The position numbers and the translations under genes are program-made. From an uncultured Eubacteriales bacterium (GTDB lineage Bacteria > Bacillota > Clostridia > Lachnospirales > Lachnospiraceae): 64,000 bases of DNA. A model generated the notes under the pieces. That model saw only the letters and a program-made list of their open reading frames with translations. It had not been told where the DNA came from and did not search any database. Of the stretch, positions 27,608 to 62,240 are shown piece after piece (positions within the stretch are counted from its first letter, which is position 1; each line of letters begins with the position of its first letter). The stretch is taken from positions 1 through 64,000 of the forward strand of contig OMVU01000011.1 in assembly GCA_900314565.1 (NCBI GenBank), written 5' to 3'.

Positions 27608-29011
27608 ATGTCTGTATTGGATATCATCGCGGAAAAGACCCGGGAGAGAGTCATTGCTGCAAAGGCAGCAGATCCCGACCTCCCGGATCGGGTCTTAAGG
27701 AGCGTCCCTCATGGGGCGGAGGAGGATGAGATCCTTCCCTTTGAGGCTGCGCTCAGGAAAAGCACGCTCTCCTGCATCTGTGAGGTGAAGCGGGCAAGCC
27801 CTTCCAAAGGCCTCATCGCGCCGGTCTTTCCCTATACGGAGATTGCCGTGGAATATGAGAGAGCAGGGGCAGACGCGATCTCATGCCTTACGGAGCCGTA
27901 TTGGTTCAGGGGAAGCCTTGGCATTCTTCGGGAGATCAGGCAGGCGGTGAGCCTGCCGATCCTGCGGAAGGATTTCACGGTCGATCCGTATATGATCTAT
28001 GTGGCGAAGGAGGCCGGCGCGGACGCGGTCCTGCTCATCTGCTCGATCCTTACGGAGAAGGAGATCCGGGAATGGCTTGCCCTCTGCAGAAGACTCAGGC
28101 TTTCGGCGGTCGTCGAAGCGCATGACGAGGAGGAGATCCGCATGGCGGTCCGCTGCGGGGCGCGCATCATCGGGGTCAACAACAGGAATCTCGGTGACTT
28201 CACAGTGGATATGGGAAATGCCGGAAGGCTCAGGGCCTGTGTTCCGGAGGACAGGGTGTTCATTTCCGAGAGCGGAGTGAAGAGCAGGCGGGATATGGAG
28301 ATGGCAGAGCGTATGGACGCGGATGCGGTCCTCATCGGGGAGACCATGATGAGGGCGGGAGACAAATGTCAGAAGCTCCGGGAGCTCAGGGGACTGCCGT
28401 TCCGCGAAATACCCATCGTCAAGATCTGCGGTCTGCGCACGGAGGAGGAGATCGATTTTGCGAACCGTCTTCGACCGGATCTTGTCGGTTTTGTGTTCGC
28501 GAAGTCAAGACGGCAGGTGGATCCGGAAAAGGCAAAAATGCTGAGAGCCTGCCTCAATCCGGGAATTTCTGCGGTCGGCGTGTTCGTCGACGAGGATCCG
28601 GAAAAGATCATCAGCCTGCTCCTTGACGGGACGATCGACATCGCACAGCTTCACGGGCATGAGACGGATGAGATGATCACGGAGATCCGGGAGAGGACAA
28701 TGAGGCCGGTCATACGGGCACTCATTCCGACCGGAGAGGACGATGATTCGTGGAAAAAGTATCCCCATGCCGATCTGCTTCTTCTCGATGCGGGGAGCGG
28801 TAGCGGGCAGAAGCTCGACTGGACGATCTTAAAAAATGTGGATGCACCGTTCATCCTCGCCGGCGGTCTCACGCCGGACAACGTGCAGGAGGCGGTCAGG
28901 ACCGTCAGACCGTTCGGGGTCGACGTCTCTTCCGGTGTCGAGTATCCGGAGGGCGGAAAGAGCTTTGAGAAAATGAAGAGCTTCGTGGAATCCGCACGGA
29001 ATGCGGAATAA
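27608..29011 (+). CDS. trpCF: Fused indole-3-glycerol phosphate synthase / phosphoribosylanthranilate isomerase
   Basis: A 467-residue bifunctional enzyme for two successive tryptophan steps. The N-terminal TrpC barrel (about 1-255) has [11 protein letters not shown], the catalytic lysine segment LRKDF, and GVNNRNL and SGV motifs. The C-terminal TrpF barrel (about 260-467) starts [12 protein letters not shown], with [13 protein letters not shown] and LAGGL. The join is direct, with no linker or frameshift. GACGGAGG precedes ATG 27608; the frame back to 27575 lies in the tandem repeat. Enterobacteria also have this fusion; in Gram-positives it is less usual. Confidence 0.95.
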
Positions 29012-54271: not shown

Positions 54272-54544
54272 CGGCAGGAACTCCGGGACGCTCCTGAATC
54301 TGAGCGCCGGGATAAGAGCTGCCTCTACCAGTATACAATGAATCAATCAGCTTAAACAGAGTCAATTTGTCGTGCTTTACTTGGAAAGAATTTTATAACA
54401 TGATAGAATACATTTTATCGGGTCTGCATAAGGGATGCTGTCTGGGAGGCGATCCATCCGACGGAACTGCTTCTCATTATGCTGCATGCATATTCCCGAA
54501 GGAAGTCTGATCGTACAAAAACGGTTTTAGGACGGGAGAAACTT
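54272..54544. other. Divergent region before the NHLM locus
   Basis: Two candidate promoters. Leftward: a minus-strand TATACT at 54330-54335 for the MBOAT gene. Rightward: TTGGAA (54381-54386), 17 bp, TGATAGAAT extended -10 (54401-54409) for the NHLM genes. A 36-codon open frame at 54400-54510 encodes a Cys- and Gly-rich stretch (GCCLGGDPSDG), but its ATG lies inside the promoter. No convincing precursor peptide gene is seen. Confidence 0.5.
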
Positions 54545-54784
54545 ATGAACAATTCAGTTTTCAGAAAGAAAAGTCTGGAGAGGATCTCATCCCCCGAACA
54601 GATCAACGATTATATCAGAGTGATCACGCCCGGCATGTGGATTCTTCTCATCGTAATTATCCTGCTTGTCATTGCCGGGATCACATGGGGGCTCTGTGTG
54701 ACTTTGACAGTCACGGATGTCAATTCAGCGGGTGAGGTCGTAAAGAGCACTGTCTCTCCGATCTCTTATGTGATCGGCAGGTGA
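54545..54784 (+). CDS. Short NHLM-system HlyD-like secretion protein (79 residues)
   Basis: The sequence FRKKSLERISSPEQINDYIR, then a membrane span (about 30-55), matches the N-terminus of NHLM bacteriocin-system secretion proteins, which are normally more than 200 residues. Here the frame stops after GEVVKSTVSPISYVIGR, so the periplasmic-type coiled coil and barrel are missing. There is no continuation in other frames, because the transporter gene starts at the stop codon. GACGGGAG precedes ATG 54545. Either a relic or a deliberately short adaptor; the good ribosome binding site and tight coupling favour a working short form. Confidence 0.75.
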   Translation: MNNSVFRKKSLERISSPEQINDYIRVITPGMWILLIVIILLVIAGITWGLCVTLTVTDVNSAGEVVKSTVSPISYVIGR

Positions 54785-54792
54785 GATCGGAT

Positions 54793-56973
54793 ATGGGTAA
54801 TAGTAAAGTGAAGCAACCGGTCAGGAACGGTCATGCCAAAGTGCCGGTCGTCATGCAGATGGAGGCGCTCGAATGCGGTGCGGCCTCGCTGTGCATGATC
54901 CTGGCTTATTATAATAAGTGGATCCCCCTCGAGCAGGTCCGCTATGACTGCGGAGTGTCCAGAGACGGATCAAATGCCCGGAACATGCTTCAGGCAGCCA
55001 GAAATTACGGCCTCGAGGCGAAGGGCTTTCGTTTTGAACCCCAGTTCCTGAAGGAGAACGGTTTTTTTCCGTGCATAATACACTGGGATTTCAATCACTT
55101 TGTCGTACTGTGCGGCTTCAAAAAGAACAAAGCGGTCATCAATGATCCCGCCAGAGGTACCGTCGAAGTCTCAATGGAGGAGTTCGACCGCTCGTTCACG
55201 GGCGTCACGCTGCTTTTGGAACCGGGAGAGAGTTTTGAGCCCGGAGGGAAGAGGAAAAGCATACGGGAATTTACGAAAAGGAAGCTTCTGGGGACGAAGT
55301 CGGCTTTCATTTTCACAATTCTCATCTTTGCCGCGACGAACCTTATGTCCATGGTCAGTCCGGCCTTCCAGCGCGTGCTCTATGACCGCCTGCTCACAGG
55401 GAAAAGTCCGGAATGGGTGAGACCGTTCCTCATCATTCTCGCAATGGTGACAGGTCTTCAGATCGTAATTCAGGCGCTCAAGATCATCTTCTCGCTGAGA
55501 CTGGAGGGAAAGCTGGCGATCGTCGCGAACTCCGAATATATGTGGCATATCCTGCGTCTGCCGATGGAGTTCTTCTCGCAGCGAATGGCAGGCGATATTG
55601 CCCAGCGGAAGCGGACAAATGAAAAAATCGCCTCAACGCTCATCGGGACACTTGCCCCGCTCGCGGTCGATGTATTTATGATGCTCTTTTACCTCGTTTT
55701 CCTTATCAAAACGAGTGCGGTCCTCGCGATGATCGGCGTGCTGGGTGTTCTGATCAATACGGTCGTCCGCAGATACATTTCCGAAAAGAGGATCAATATA
55801 GCCCGTGTCATGATGCGTGACAGCGGAAAACTCGAGTCAACGACACTGTCGGGAATTTCCATGATCGAGACGATCAAGGCCAGCGGAGCGGAGAACGGTT
55901 TTTTCAGGAAGTGGTCTGGATTTCAGGCGTCTGTTAACCGGCAGCAGGTGGAGACGGAGCGCATCAATTATTATCTGGGAATCATCCCCTCGCTGATCTC
56001 CGATATTGTCACGATGATCATCCTCTGGATGGGAGTCATGCTCATCGTGAACGGCGATTTCACGATCGGTATCCTCACGCAGTTCACGGCATGGCTGGGC
56101 TCTTTTGTGGCGCCCGCCGATCAGCTGCTCGATATGCAGAACACGATCCGTGAGATGCGGACAAATATGGAACGCATCGAGGACGTTATGGATTATCCCG
56201 TGGATGTGACAGAGGAGAAAATGGAGTTCAATGAGAGTCTCAGCTACAAGAAGCTGGGCGGCAAAATTGAGATGAAGAACGTCACATTCGGTTATTCGCG
56301 CCTCGCCAGCCCGCTGATCGAGAATTTCAACATGACCGTGCTTCCGGGGCAGAAAATTGCTTTCTGCGGGCCTTCCGGCTGCGGCAAGTCTACGATCGCA
56401 AAGCTTTTGACGGGGCTTTACAAACCCTGGAGCGGGGAGATCCTGTACGACGGAATTCCGATTGATGAGATCGACCGGAATCAGTTCACAGGCTCGGTCG
56501 CGATGGTCGATCAGGACATCACACTCTTTGAGGATACGATCTCGGACAACATCAGGATGTGGGATACGACGATCGAAGATTTCGAAGTGATCTTGGCAGC
56601 TCGGGATACGATGATGCATGAGACGATCATTCAGCGTGACGGAGGATACCAGTATAAAATGCTCGAAGGCGGCGCCGACTTTTCCGGCGGTGAGCGGCAG
56701 AGACTGGAGATCGCGAGAGTTCTTGCGCAGGATCCTTCGATCATTATTATGGACGAAGCCACAAGTGCTCTGGACGCGCGTACAGAGGCGCAGGTCGTGA
56801 ATTCCGTGAGAGATCGCGGAATCAGCTGTGTTGTCGTTGCGCACAGACTTTCCACGATCCGTGACAGTGACGAGATCATCGTGATGAATCAGGGGCAGAT
56901 CGTTGAACGCGGGAAGCATGAGGATCTGCTTAATGAGCACGGATTTTATGAACAGCTGATTATGTGCGAGTAG
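54793..56973 (+). CDS. NHLM-type ABC transporter with C39 peptidase domain
   Basis: A 726-residue peptide exporter. The N-terminal C39 domain (about 15-140) has catalytic Cys28 in MEALECGAASLCM, His in IIHWDFNHFVVL and Asp in INDPARG; it cuts leader peptides after Gly-Gly/Gly-Ala. Six spans (about 165-430) and an ATPase (about 490-720) follow, with Walker A GPSGCGKST, signature FSGGERQR and Walker B IIMDEATSALD. AGGTGAGATC precedes ATG 54793; a GTG at 54781 overlaps the previous stop. It heads a pair with the next gene, the standard NHLM arrangement. Confidence 0.93.
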   Translation: MGNSKVKQPVRNGHAKVPVVMQMEALECGAASLCMILAYYNKWIPLEQVRYDCGVSRDGSNARNMLQAARNYGLEAKGFRFEPQFLKENGFFPCIIHWDFNHFVVLCGFKKNKAVINDPARGTVEVSMEEFDRSFTGVTLLLEPGESFEPGGKRKSIREFTKRKLLGTKSAFIFTILIFAATNLMSMVSPAFQRVLYDRLLTGKSPEWVRPFLIILAMVTGLQIVIQALKIIFSLRLEGKLAIVANSEYMWHILRLPMEFFSQRMAGDIAQRKRTNEKIASTLIGTLAPLAVDVFMMLFYLVFLIKTSAVLAMIGVLGVLINTVVRRYISEKRINIARVMMRDSGKLESTTLSGISMIETIKASGAENGFFRKWSGFQASVNRQQVETERINYYLGIIPSLISDIVTMIILWMGVMLIVNGDFTIGILTQFTAWLGSFVAPADQLLDMQNTIREMRTNMERIEDVMDYPVDVTEEKMEFNESLSYKKLGGKIEMKNVTFGYSRLASPLIENFNMTVLPGQKIAFCGPSGCGKSTIAKLLTGLYKPWSGEILYDGIPIDEIDRNQFTGSVAMVDQDITLFEDTISDNIRMWDTTIEDFEVILAARDTMMHETIIQRDGGYQYKMLEGGADFSGGERQRLEIARVLAQDPSIIIMDEATSALDARTEAQVVNSVRDRGISCVVVAHRLSTIRDSDEIIVMNQGQIVERGKHEDLLNEHGFYEQLIMCE

Positions 56974-56983
56974 GAGGAAGCAG

Positions 56984-59164
56984 ATGGGATGGTTTGAGGA
57001 ACAGATCCGGGACAGGGTCCAGAATGATGATGACCTTTTCGCGGATTCCTTTGCCCGGATGGCGAATATGCTGGGAGGACAGGAGTTTCTGTCCGTACAG
57101 TTCCATTCGGACAGAGAGATTGCCGAGGAGGCGATCTCGGACATTCTGAAGTTCTACCACGTGCATGCCCAGGATGTTCCGCGAAATATTCAGGATTTGA
57201 ATGAAGTGCTGGACTTTCTGCTCCGGCCTTCAGGAATTATGTACAGACCTGTCAAACTGGAGGGTGAATGGTATAAGCATGCATCGGGAGCCATGCTCGG
57301 TACGCTGAAAGGCGATAAATCCGTTGCACTTATTCCGGGAAAGTTTTCAGGGTATAATTACAAGGATCCCGACTCCGGAAAACTTATCCATATTACGAAG
57401 AAGAACGCCAAAGAAATCGATGAGGGAGCGATCTGCTTCTATACGCAGTTTCCGCTCCGGTCGATCGGGAGGCAGGATCTTATGTCTTATATGTTCGCGC
57501 TGCTTACCGGCAGGGATTACGCGAAGATGGTCGGTGCGGCGCTTGCCGTCACTCTGGTCGGAATGGTCACACCGCTCGTCTATAATTATATCTATACGTC
57601 GAAATACCTCACGGAAGCAAATTTGAGCGGACTTGTCTTTGCGCTGGTCACACTGACTTCGGCGTCTATTGCGCACACACTGCTCACAAGTGTCCGCAGT
57701 GTCGTGGATACCGGAGTGGAGCTTCGTCTCGATGTCGCCGTAGAGAGTGCAACAATGATGCGTCTTCTCTCACTTCCGCCGGCCTTCTTTAAGAAGTTCA
57801 GCGCCGGTGAGCTGGCAAGCCGTGTGAACGGTGTTCAGAGTCTCTGTAAGATGATGTTCGACATGGTCTTCACGGCGCTCACGTCTGCGCTGTTCCTTCT
57901 GCTGTATGTCGCGCAGATCTACAGTTATGCGCCAAGCCTTTGTACGCCGGCTGTTCTGATCACGCTTTCGACGATCGTGGTCTCAGTCGTTGCGGCAATC
58001 GTCCAGACACGGATCTCGAAGTTTGAGATGGAAGAGCTCAGCAAAGAGAACGGACTTGTCTTTGCCCTGATCAACGGCATTGCAAAAATAAAAAACACCG
58101 GTTCGGAGAAAAGAGCTTTTGCAAAATGGGCAAAGCAGTACACAAAAGCGGCTTCCTACCACTATAATCCCCCGGTGTTCCTGAAAATGAATTCTGTGAT
58201 CACTTCCGCGATCTCTCTTGCAGGTACCATTATCCTCTATACGATCGCGATCGATGAAAAGATTCCGGCAAATGACTTTATGTCCTTCTCGACGGCCTTC
58301 GGGTTCGTGAGCGGCGCGATCTCGGCATTTGCGTCGCTTGCCGTGGCAAATGCTCAGATCAAGCCGATCCTCGATATGGTGGAACCGGTGCTGAAAGAAG
58401 TCCCGGAGATGGACGAGAATAAGAAAATCGTTACGGCGTTAAGCGGTGGGATAGAGCTCAGCCATATCTCGTTCCGCTATAAGGAATCGCTGCCGCTCGT
58501 CCTCGATGATATTTCCATGAAGATCCGTCCGGGACAGTACGTGGCGATCGTAGGGAAGACCGGATGCGGAAAATCGACGCTGATGAGGATCCTTCTTGGA
58601 TTTGAGAAGCCGGAAAAGGGCGCGGTCTATTATGACGGAAGGAACCTTGACGCACTGGATGTGAAATCTCTGAGGCACAAGATCGGCGTTGTCATGCAGA
58701 ACGGAAAACTGTTCCAGGGCGATATCTACTCAAATATTACGATCTCTGCCCCGCAGCTCACGCTCAAGGAGGCCTGGGAGGCAGCGGAGATGGCCGGAAT
58801 GAAGGAAGATATCGAGAACATGCCGATGGGGATGCACACGGTGATCTCCGAGGGCAGCGGCGGCATCTCCGGAGGGCAGCGGCAGAGACTCATGATCGCG
58901 CGGGCGATCGCGCCGAAGCCGAAGGTCCTTATGTTCGATGAGGCGACCAGTGCGCTGGATAATATTACGCAGAAGATCGTGTCCGACTCTCTGGAAAAAC
59001 TGAAATGCACGAGAATCGTCATCGCGCACAGGCTTTCGACGATCCGGAACTGTGACAGGATCATTGTTCTGGACGGCGGGAAGATCATAGAGGACGGCAC
59101 GTATGATGAGCTGATCGAGAAGAACGGCTTTTTTGCGGAGCTGGTCGAACGGCAGAGACTGTAA
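56984..59164 (+). CDS. NHLM-type ABC transporter, second ATP-binding subunit
   Basis: A 726-residue partner of the C39 exporter, without a peptidase. Residues about 1-165 form a soluble N-terminal region typical of the second NHLM subunit, which may be a degenerate nucleotide-binding-like fold. Six spans (about 175-440) follow, then an ATPase (about 480-710) with Walker A GKTGCGKST, signature ISGGQRQR and Walker B LMFDEATSALD. GAGGAAGC precedes ATG 56984, 11 bp after the previous stop. Both nucleotide sites look intact, so a heterodimer is likely. Confidence 0.92.
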   Translation: MGWFEEQIRDRVQNDDDLFADSFARMANMLGGQEFLSVQFHSDREIAEEAISDILKFYHVHAQDVPRNIQDLNEVLDFLLRPSGIMYRPVKLEGEWYKHASGAMLGTLKGDKSVALIPGKFSGYNYKDPDSGKLIHITKKNAKEIDEGAICFYTQFPLRSIGRQDLMSYMFALLTGRDYAKMVGAALAVTLVGMVTPLVYNYIYTSKYLTEANLSGLVFALVTLTSASIAHTLLTSVRSVVDTGVELRLDVAVESATMMRLLSLPPAFFKKFSAGELASRVNGVQSLCKMMFDMVFTALTSALFLLLYVAQIYSYAPSLCTPAVLITLSTIVVSVVAAIVQTRISKFEMEELSKENGLVFALINGIAKIKNTGSEKRAFAKWAKQYTKAASYHYNPPVFLKMNSVITSAISLAGTIILYTIAIDEKIPANDFMSFSTAFGFVSGAISAFASLAVANAQIKPILDMVEPVLKEVPEMDENKKIVTALSGGIELSHISFRYKESLPLVLDDISMKIRPGQYVAIVGKTGCGKSTLMRILLGFEKPEKGAVYYDGRNLDALDVKSLRHKIGVVMQNGKLFQGDIYSNITISAPQLTLKEAWEAAEMAGMKEDIENMPMGMHTVISEGSGGISGGQRQRLMIARAIAPKPKVLMFDEATSALDNITQKIVSDSLEKLKCTRIVIAHRLSTIRNCDRIIVLDGGKIIEDGTYDELIEKNGFFAELVERQRL

Positions 59165-60600: not shown

Positions 60601-61521
60601 ATGTTGATTATGATAGGCGGGCTGCCTGTTATACACAGGCTGCAGTCTGACGGAGATTTGAAATACGATCCTATGAAAAAGAAGAAATCGGCGGAAGAGG
60701 ATAAAAAGCGGAACGGCCGGCATAAGTCCGCTTCATCATCTGCTCTGAGAGGTGCAGCGAAAAACGTTAAAGCGTATGCCGTGTCGTTCGTGCCTCAGCG
60801 CGTCAGCGGACGGACGGCGCTCGGTTTTATGGAATTCCTTCGGGCAGTTCAGCCGAGACGTGCCGCATTGGCTGAGGGAAACCTGTATGGAAATTTATAT
60901 GCCTACGCGAAGCACCGGGAAAGAGTTACCCGGCAGGACGGCTATATTGAGGATCAGGAAAACTATAGCGATCTCCGTTATGGGAGCGTCACCGTTTCGT
61001 ATGCCGGCTGCGAAGTCATTGCCGTGGCGAATGTTCTGAACGCTCTCCGGCGGGCCGGGCTCATCGGGGATGAGATGGATCGGGAACTGCCGCATCTTCT
61101 CTATTCTTTTGAAATGAACGGAAAACTCCTGGAAGGCAGATTCGGCACTTCTCCCGGAGCGCTTCGGGACTATATGAAATACTGCGGATTTGAGACCTGG
61201 CTGTGTACGGACCCGAAGATTTTCCCGATTGTTGCGGGAATGTCAGATGTTCTTATCCTTACCTGTTATAATGACGAGAAGAATCTCCTGAAGGAGGTCC
61301 ATACATTCTGTATTTCAAAGGAAGACGGATACCGGACGCACAATGCCTATAACCGGGGAAAGGCGGGGTACCGTTATGAGAGATTTGAGGATCTTCTGCG
61401 CAGTCTGAACGGCGGACTTGCAAAGCCGATCTGCCTTGTCGGTGTGCGGGCAGCCGGAAAAAGCGCTGCAGCACCTGAGTCGGATGCAGGTTCCCTGAAT
61501 AGGAAAGAAAAGGATATGTGA
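60601..61521 (+). CDS. Putative C39-like cysteine peptidase
   Basis: A 306-residue protein with a Lys-rich N-terminus and no clear signal peptide. The central domain looks like a papain/C39-like fold: Cys137 in SYAGCEVIAVANVL, His234 in EVHTFCISK and an Asn/His pair (His247, Asn248) in YRTHNAYN. The family is not certain, and the Gln before the Cys is not obvious. The start is uncertain; ATGs at 60601, 60610 and 60673 are all in frame, and none has a strong ribosome binding site. It is read with the next gene, whose ATG overlaps its stop codon. Confidence 0.65.
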   Translation: MLIMIGGLPVIHRLQSDGDLKYDPMKKKKSAEEDKKRNGRHKSASSSALRGAAKNVKAYAVSFVPQRVSGRTALGFMEFLRAVQPRRAALAEGNLYGNLYAYAKHRERVTRQDGYIEDQENYSDLRYGSVTVSYAGCEVIAVANVLNALRRAGLIGDEMDRELPHLLYSFEMNGKLLEGRFGTSPGALRDYMKYCGFETWLCTDPKIFPIVAGMSDVLILTCYNDEKNLLKEVHTFCISKEDGYRTHNAYNRGKAGYRYERFEDLLRSLNGGLAKPICLVGVRAAGKSAAAPESDAGSLNRKEKDM

Positions 61522-62240
61522 TGTATCTGCTGAGACTTCCCAGGCATCCGGATGTGTTTTTTTATTCGGTAAGGAACGCCGGATCGAGTGCGAACTTTTT
61601 ATGTATACTGGACGAGACGGCATCGATCTATGACCGATATATGGGAGAGATGAGAGGCCGTCCTCTGACGGTCAGACTGGTCCGTCCAAATGAGATTCCG
61701 GAATGTATCCGTGAACTCTCCGAGATCCGTCTTGCCGCATCCTACCGCTATCCGTCTCAGGCGGTCTATCAGTTCGCCCACGAACTCTGCCATTTCAGGA
61801 TAGAAAATCCGGTCTGCGAGAGTCTGAGATGGCTGGAAGAATCCTTCTGTGAGGCAGGTTCGCATTTTGTATTGAGACGGCTCACACCCTCCGTGTTCCT
61901 GCAGGGTGGTCATGAAGCGCTTGCGGAGTACGCCCCGAAGTTCTCTAAGTATTCCGAAGAGATCCTTTCGACAGCGAAGGAAGTGGATCTTGCTGATCCG
62001 GACCAGATCAGAAGATTTACGATGAACTGCTATCTCAGAGAAGAAAATCTCTGTGCGGCAGAGCAGCTTCTGCATGTTTTATCCCGGAGAGCGGATCTCT
62101 GGAAGGCGGTCTGTTATCTGGGACACGTGCCGGAAGGGTTTTCATTTTACGATTCCCTGACGATCTGGAGGCAGCACTGCCCGGCGGAGCTGCAATCCGC
62201 AGTCGACATGGTGTGCGGGATATTCAGACAAAGGCATTAA
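61521..62240 (+). CDS. Putative HExxH metallopeptidase-like protein
   Basis: A 239-residue protein I cannot place in a named family. FAHELCHF (His87, Glu88, His91) is a zinc-metallopeptidase-type HExxH motif, and Glu106 or Glu107 in WLEESFCEAGSHF is at a suitable distance to be a third ligand, as in gluzincins. There is no signal peptide, so it acts in the cytoplasm. The start ATG overlaps the preceding stop (TGATG), showing translational coupling. Activity is not certain, since HExxH can occur in inactive domains. Confidence 0.65.
   Translation: MYLLRLPRHPDVFFYSVRNAGSSANFLCILDETASIYDRYMGEMRGRPLTVRLVRPNEIPECIRELSEIRLAASYRYPSQAVYQFAHELCHFRIENPVCESLRWLEESFCEAGSHFVLRRLTPSVFLQGGHEALAEYAPKFSKYSEEILSTAKEVDLADPDQIRRFTMNCYLREENLCAAEQLLHVLSRRADLWKAVCYLGHVPEGFSFYDSLTIWRQHCPAELQSAVDMVCGIFRQRH

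Follow-up and report, generated by a model that had tools for sequence, protein, structure and literature searches.

The window, by which we mean the whole 64-kb stretch of DNA analysed here (part of contig C105 of the genome G000, from an uncultured bacterium of the Lachnospiraceae), carries three consecutive open reading frames (ORFs) on its plus strand, at 54545-54784, 54781-56973 and 56984-59164, which probably encode a functional double ATP-binding cassette (ABC) peptide exporter of the NHLP/NHLM type, with a HlyD-like protein of 79 amino acids (aa) as a minimal adaptor and with its cargo encoded in trans. An original prediction, made from the letters of the DNA alone, had placed an intact C39-peptidase ABC exporter and a second ABC subunit here, together with a 79-residue HlyD-like gene starting at 54545, and these gene calls were upheld by profile searches. 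The first ABC protein (ABC1) scored above the cut-off of TIGR03796 (909.5 versus 853.3 bits) and the second (ABC2) above that of TIGR03797 (720.3 versus 709.4 bits). The 79-aa protein was matched by TIGR03794 over positions 1-55 of 421 only (31.4 bits, E 9e-8), below the cut-off of 156.2, and judged by this profile it is a homologous part of the TIGR03794 family and not an equivalog. The features of the locus are listed below.

54534..54538, plus strand: Shine-Dalgarno-like GGGAG ahead of the 79-aa gene, read from the sequence; GGGAG and AGGAG in two sister species.
54545..54784, plus strand: micro-HlyD gene, 79 aa, stop included; TIGR03794 positions 1-55, 79 aa in both sisters, 28-row alignment.
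54593..54697, plus strand: predicted long helix, residues 17-51, containing the membrane span; AlphaFold2 model.
54704..54754, plus strand: predicted beta hairpin, residues 54-70, where the missing domain would be; AlphaFold2 model and alignment with relatives of 138-160 aa.
54755..54775, plus strand: C-terminal motif SPISYVI; alignments, a similar motif ending the longer relatives.
54793..56973, plus strand: ABC1, with C39 peptidase, permease and ATPase, the frame being open from GTG 54781; TIGR03796, start by sister comparison.
54838..55230, plus strand: Peptidase_C39 domain of ABC1; PF03412 (E 8.3e-36) and comparison with LahT147 (6mpz).
56984..59164, plus strand: ABC2, permease and ATPase without peptidase, 726 aa; TIGR03797.

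The ribosome binding site proposed ahead of the small gene was thus recovered, with a counterpart in each sister. The stop of the gene had been placed at the start of the next one, which is probably not quite right: since GTG 54781 is out of frame in one sister and ATG 54793 is present in all three, ABC1 more likely begins at this ATG, 8 bases past the stop of the 79-aa gene, than at the GTG.

Nor was it correct that the SPEQ segment and the membrane span are all that remains of the adaptor. On alignment with relatives of 138-160 aa, the N-terminal segment with the span was matched, and so was a PISFLxN-like motif at the C-terminal end, the stretch between them being absent; full-length forms have a similar motif near their C-terminal end (e.g. 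PPITMLIP). As the C-terminal motif (SPISYVI) is retained in the 79-aa protein, the part that is missing is therefore the middle. An AlphaFold2 model of the protein (mean pLDDT 80.6, about 60 over the first 20 residues; pTM 0.49) placed helices at residues 4-14 and 17-51, strands at 54-59 and 65-70, and the final helix at 72-77. The coiled coil and the lipoyl/beta-barrel domains of a full HlyD-type membrane fusion protein were found neither within the 79 aa nor in the model.

Conservation of the short length in relatives had been suggested as a check, and it was observed both in sister species and further afield. In the sisters G034 and G041 the gene likewise encodes 79 aa, of which 72 and 75 are identical, its surroundings are conserved, and the ratios of non-synonymous to synonymous substitution rates (dN/dS) were 0.087 and 0.050; by these comparisons of sequence the gene is under purifying selection and is not a decayed remnant. 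A public search with a micro-HlyD profile was then evaluated over the best 80 of 257 loci, with gene starts set by a script rule, and HlyD forms of 73-85 aa were present at 33 of these 80, a C39 ABC gene adjoining in 31 of the 33. This search favours close and short relatives because its pattern was derived from micro forms, and some of the records are apparently the same genomes as in our other searches, the sisters included. Alignment of the window protein with 27 of the 33 public micro proteins (28 rows) showed F6, R7, K9, S10, P17, D22, Y23, W32, W48 and P72 to be invariant besides M1, while in a second set of 14 the proline was absent from the two shortest forms, L063 (67 aa) and L097 (55 aa). 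The public micro forms came mainly from Lachnospiraceae-labelled records (two of them Butyrivibrio), with one metagenome-assembled genome labelled Spirochaetales. As a separate observation, two Spirochaete-labelled records, L240 and L270, carry HlyD-like genes of 76 aa and 160 aa adjoining a C39 exporter, which would reflect transfer or, for the metagenome-assembled genome, misbinning.

Evidence on the cargo comes from the C39 domain and from candidate leaders. In an alignment with LahT147 (6mpz), the ABC1 C39 domain shows 103 identities over 140 residues (74%), LahT being the AMS/PCAT transporter of Lachnospiraceae bacterium C6A11 (PMC6363468). Two C39 domains in all were detected in G000 with PF03412, one for each NHLM locus, the second locus lying on C145 with a 160-aa HlyD-like protein; both domains resemble LahT and, because there are only these two, both are candidates for the processing of Gly-Gly leaders. 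According to the available sections of the LahT150 study, the positions that count, in addition to Gly-Gly itself, are -12 and -7, each with Leu, and -4, with Val or the like (PMC6363468). The 20 distinct leaders that we collected have I, L or M at -12 in all cases, Leu at -7 in 19 and Phe in one, and V or I at -4 in all 20 (the leader script missed that of L188). They thus fit the published rule at positions -12, -7, -4, -2 and -1, and cleavage is predicted.

No precursor peptide had been seen next to the locus, and in agreement with this, searches by regular expression gave no credible Gly-Gly-leader ORF, either in the window or in the next 14.8 kb, which together make up the whole 78.8-kb contig. 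A looser Gly-Gly pattern gave one match in the contig, without an acidic leader, and a DNA pattern match at window position 28423 lay in an 86-aa frame not resembling a leader; both were rejected. TIGR03798 detected no Nif11 precursor above its cut-off in G000, with weak matches only (best E 0.07), so that neither beside the locus nor elsewhere in the genome was an NHLP/Nif11 leader precursor found by patterns and TIGR03798, no search with TIGR03793 (NHLP) having been made.

Gly-Gly-leader precursors were instead found elsewhere in G000, which lends weight to the earlier suggestion of a substrate encoded at a distance. They comprise three intact copies (on C62, C68 and C88) of a 90-aa leader-SH3 protein, consisting of MTDMMNMAINDMELDNVTGG followed by an SH3_3 domain, a fourth copy apparently split across the ends of C184 and C191, the pieces of which have 59 identical bases in common, and four other Gly-Gly-leader peptides: two of 75 aa (on C88 and C56) that share this kind of leader and end in RPRLILL, one of 51 aa on C56 and one of 49 aa about 7 kb before the second exporter. 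The SH3_3 domain (PF08239) exceeded its gathering score of 27 in all four genus-type proteins tested (42.5, 33.2, 29.4 and 34.2 bits). A broad [DE]LxxVxGG-like DNA pattern gave 45 matches in G000 versus 17 in a reversed control; nine were leader-like by eye, of which the one on C131, overlapping another gene, was not counted as a precursor. The stricter pattern ELDxVxGG matched in 34 of the 42 genomes of the genus, many of them by the form ELDRVLGG, which we take to be RadA.

When copies of the SH3 gene (L127, L128, L129 and L130) were compared, 85-110 upstream bases were found to be common to them. This upstream stretch contains TATAAG or TATAAA and a GGCC-GAAAGA-GGCC-like hairpin, and may possibly be a shared promoter and control site. 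Some SH3 precursor copies, at G009:C20, G012:C139, G035:C42 and G034:C244, carry one in-frame TGA or an internal deletion and look as if they were copies in decay. In G013 a Gly-Gly leader precedes a cold-shock domain (L209:1414-1668; PF00313 above cut-off), which would be an unusual exported cargo if real.

Co-occurrence of these precursors with the exporter was assessed in the 42 genomes of the genus. ABC2 was matched at E <= 1e-140 in 20 of them; the SH3 precursor profile matched 29 at E <= 0.1, many only via an SH3 domain inside a larger frame, and leader-bearing precursors were present in 18 (the best one of each was read). Leader-bearing SH3 precursors occurred in 15/20 ABC2-positive versus 3/22 ABC2-negative genomes (Fisher p 1.1e-4, a value which overstates independence because the genomes are related; many are also incomplete), and two of the three ABC2-negative carriers were inspected (L021 and L033), both having an NHLM-type HlyD gene. 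Counting TIGR03794 N-terminal matches as well, by a rule made after seeing the data, the figures became 18/24 versus 0/18 (p 5e-7). In a sample of 396 genomes of the family, ABC2 was matched at the same threshold in 38 and the SH3 precursor profile (E <= 1e-6) in 37; small leader-bearing SH3 frames were confined to three of these, G000, G114 and G381, all ABC2-positive (one leader each was read in G114 and G381), and the other 34 matches were frames of 327 aa or more not starting at a leader. The SH3 association is therefore mostly limited to this genus, and exporters elsewhere would have other cargo.

Links in cis were also found. At L048, a locus with a 139-aa HlyD, a leader-SH3 gene lies about 115 bases past ABC2, and at L215 an 85-aa micro-HlyD and both ABC genes are followed by a Gly-Gly-leader protein matching SH3 folds in Foldseek, although Pfam gave no match for this cargo and confidence in its model is modest (pLDDT 63). 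Gly-Gly-leader-like ORFs of some kind, with varied cargo, were present at 12 of the 33 public micro loci, within flanks of up to 6 kb (some contigs being shorter). Near an NHLM locus with a 156-aa HlyD in G427 (L066), an array of eight related Gly-Gly-leader proteins was seen about 4.6-7.8 kb past the ABC1 start.

Several further observations, like the relatedness of the genomes and the uncertain cargo of L215, weigh against an exporter with a minimal adaptor and SH3 cargo in trans. A Foldseek search with the micro model gave no meaningful match, and a profile of short HlyDs searched against the PDB gave no HlyD of known structure. Of the ABC2-positive genomes, 5/20 lack a leader-bearing SH3 precursor; no SH3 match was found in G004 or in G016, which has a micro exporter, matches in G013 and G022 were weak (E about 0.05), and the sister G041, which carries the window's exporter and is 81% complete, shows only a 33-residue SH3 piece. 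The second exporter, with its 160-aa HlyD, could moreover carry all of the SH3 cargo.

This last point underlies the alternative that survives best, although we regard it as considerably less likely: the 79-aa protein and its exporter would be functional, the SH3 proteins would be cargo of the C145 locus, and the window exporter would carry other Gly-Gly peptides, such as the two 75-aa RPRLILL peptides, or substrates not yet seen. It gains from the LahT-like character of both C39 domains, from the placing of the window and C145 loci in different clades of the ABC1 tree described below, from the other Gly-Gly peptides of the genome and from the micro exporter without an SH3 match in G016. Against it, G022 (94% complete) has the C145-type exporter only and lacks a leader-bearing SH3 precursor, G011 (76% complete) has the micro type only and three such precursors, and at L215 SH3-like cargo stands in cis with the micro type. 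Such cases are few, and one is an incomplete genome; the SH3 proteins are assigned only tentatively to the window exporter in preference to that on C145.

For the exporter with a minimal adaptor, the following mechanism can be envisaged. The small protein has an N-terminal segment in the cytoplasm (FRKKSLERISSPEQINDYIRV), crosses the membrane once and carries a short hairpin on the outside, followed by the C-terminal PISYV motif. In the HlyB-HlyD system the N-terminus of HlyD packs against its ABC partner, and the micro-HlyD may pack with its helices against the pair of ABC1 and ABC2, while its hairpin and C-terminal motif would cap the outer side and so steady or gate the exit. Lachnospiraceae have a single membrane, and the long middle of HlyD would be dispensable because a single-membrane cell, as the host is assumed to be from its Lachnospiraceae relatives, needs no outer-membrane conduit. 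The C39 domain would recognise cargo supplied in trans by its Gly-Gly leader, and foremost among the candidates are the dispersed leader-SH3 proteins of 90 aa, which would be cleaved after Gly-Gly and released as SH3 proteins of about 70 aa. The simplest account combines a minimal adaptor under selection, a host with one membrane and a set of Gly-Gly-leader cargo that lies, partly or wholly, in trans.

The locus shares with HlyB-HlyD type I secretion a HlyD-like N-terminus beside a C39-type ABC exporter, HlyB (7sgr) being a detectable homologue of ABC1, but its small protein lacks periplasmic domains and coiled coil and its host is taken to be single-membrane. PCAT1 and ComA have the same peptidase-permease-ATPase order as ABC1, whereas the window locus has two different ABC subunits and a HlyD-like gene. 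The known cases of the PCAT1/ComA type are, to our knowledge, homodimers without an adaptor. That such PCAT transporters work without one, and that the outer domain of the 79-aa model appears too small for a ring or conduit, would suit a membrane protein that regulates the ABC pair or helps to assemble it and does not act at the exit. We hold this to be unlikely, since the homology to the HlyD N-terminus and the retained C-terminal motif suggest a reduced adaptor role, with which a role in assembly is still compatible. The likeness to the NHLP/NHLM export cassette (TIGR03794, TIGR03796, TIGR03797; PMC2887384) lies in the HlyD-like, C39 ABC and second ABC genes standing together; the differences are the 79 aa of the HlyD-like protein as against a profile of 421 positions, the lack of any nitrile-hydratase-like or Nif11 precursor found adjacent, and cargo apparently in trans. 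Haft et al. (2010), who defined the cassette, likened its HlyD-like part, in the portion of the report available, to membrane fusion proteins and took this as a hint that the outer membrane is crossed in transport (PMC2887384). The LahT cluster encodes, as far as the available sections describe it, nine Nif11-type precursors (PMC6363468), so that the dispersed short-leader SH3 candidates found here differ from its clustered precursors.

The short adaptor was then placed among the HlyD forms of related exporters. At 78 loci (77 fetched and the window), a HlyD-like gene adjoined ABC1 in 71, with lengths graded from 55 to 653 aa: 14 of 55-103 aa, 46 of 129-223, 6 of 267-305, 4 of 524-653 and one doubtful frame (L105, 788 aa). 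No HlyD gene was found beside ABC1 at the other 7, and in five of these ABC1 was missing or at a contig end. ABC2 proteins of 845-867 aa accompany the four full-length HlyD loci and two mid-length ones, those of 712-741 aa the other four mid-length loci (HlyD 301-305 aa), and those of 707-746 aa the micro forms, the exception to this pairing being L101 (HlyD 172 aa, ABC2 859 aa). In a quick, unrooted ABC1 tree of 73 rows (L053, L096, L105, L111 and L121 omitted from the 78), the micro label required 5 changes, 2 of them forced by well supported branches, against a shuffled mean of 13.0. The window exporter falls in a supported group of six rows, each with a micro form, and full-length HlyD forms exist in other clades, G004 of the same genus having one. 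Because the tree is unrooted, shortening as the direction of change is only inferred, though the HlyD-like frames that were matched in other families of the phylum have greater lengths.

It is very improbable that a full-length HlyD encoded elsewhere completes the window exporter. Elsewhere in the genus TIGR03794 often matches part of a longer frame, though such frames may be generic HlyD-like proteins, and a match above cut-off was obtained in 1/42; in G000, for which completeness is given as 100, TIGR03794 found two matches only, both of them short genes beside exporters and neither above the cut-off, no search with more general HlyD models having been made. That the gene is a truncated, decaying leftover of a full-length HlyD can be dismissed: HlyD-like matches across the phylum (24/398 genomes) are frames of 118-471 aa, mostly >280, outside this family, and a broken HlyD remnant exists elsewhere in G000, but the selection and fixed length seen in the sisters, the all-micro set of six, the 33 short forms among the best 80 public loci and the invariant Pro 72 all speak against it, and the intact, same-length, selected sister copies and micro relatives rule out a pseudogene or frameshift of a longer HlyD. 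A full-length HlyD in relatives, with a frameshift or deletion in this strain, had been named as the finding that would overturn the prediction, and it was found neither in the two sisters nor in the six-exporter set. The remnant (L332:3215-3526; G000:C90:131714-132025) corresponds to the start of another NHLM HlyD, the third in G000 and of the C145 type, in which likeness stops after about 40 residues near the contig end; by its sequence it is a decayed or disrupted copy, unlike the intact 79-aa gene.

With regard to the modifying enzymes of a RiPP biosynthetic cluster, of the nearest neighbours of the locus that were tested, one is an MBOAT protein, one has no match and one has a lipoprotein match below cut-off; the flanks of the SH3 genes were inspected by eye only. 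Two adjoining plus-strand frames 3' of the locus, at 60601-62240, have no Pfam or NCBIfam match, and the first has, by eye, a cysteine-peptidase-type look. The sequence CGCGATGAA(A/G) occurs at five sites in the window (26311, 26342, 51213, 54223 and 59262) versus a shuffled mean of 0.25; the flank is similar at some, two of the sites lie on either side of the exporter locus, and it is perhaps a small dispersed repeat.

A literature search of incomplete coverage, by titles and abstract starts, found no paper on the micro-HlyD or on leader-SH3 cargo, nor, with the same coverage, one on NHLM, bacteriocin and HlyD together, and in the Hungate1000 bacteriocin paper a term search of the main text did not find SH3, HlyD or NHLP. 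Adaptors of ABC peptide exporters are usually seen as conduits, and a form of 79 aa that selection has kept, reduced to those parts which probably contact the transporter, allows the minimal role of an adaptor to be tested. SH3 domains of bacterial enzymes bind the cell wall, and by analogy we would guess that the secreted SH3 proteins do so too. More broadly, and somewhat short of an even chance, the micro-HlyDs may form a class of their own, minimal adaptors that evolved repeatedly in the NHLP exporters of single-membrane Clostridia, in which a docking segment, span, hairpin and PI motif suffice to gate a two-subunit peptidase exporter, and in this genus the exporter may be one hub for dispersed, multi-copy secreted SH3 mini-proteins, forming a cell-wall-directed effector or antagonism system. 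A trans-encoded SH3 family would teach genome miners to match orphan exporters to their cargo by leader motif and co-occurrence, and not by neighbourhood, and the leader-SH3 family points to uncharacterised secreted small proteins in the Lachnospiraceae.
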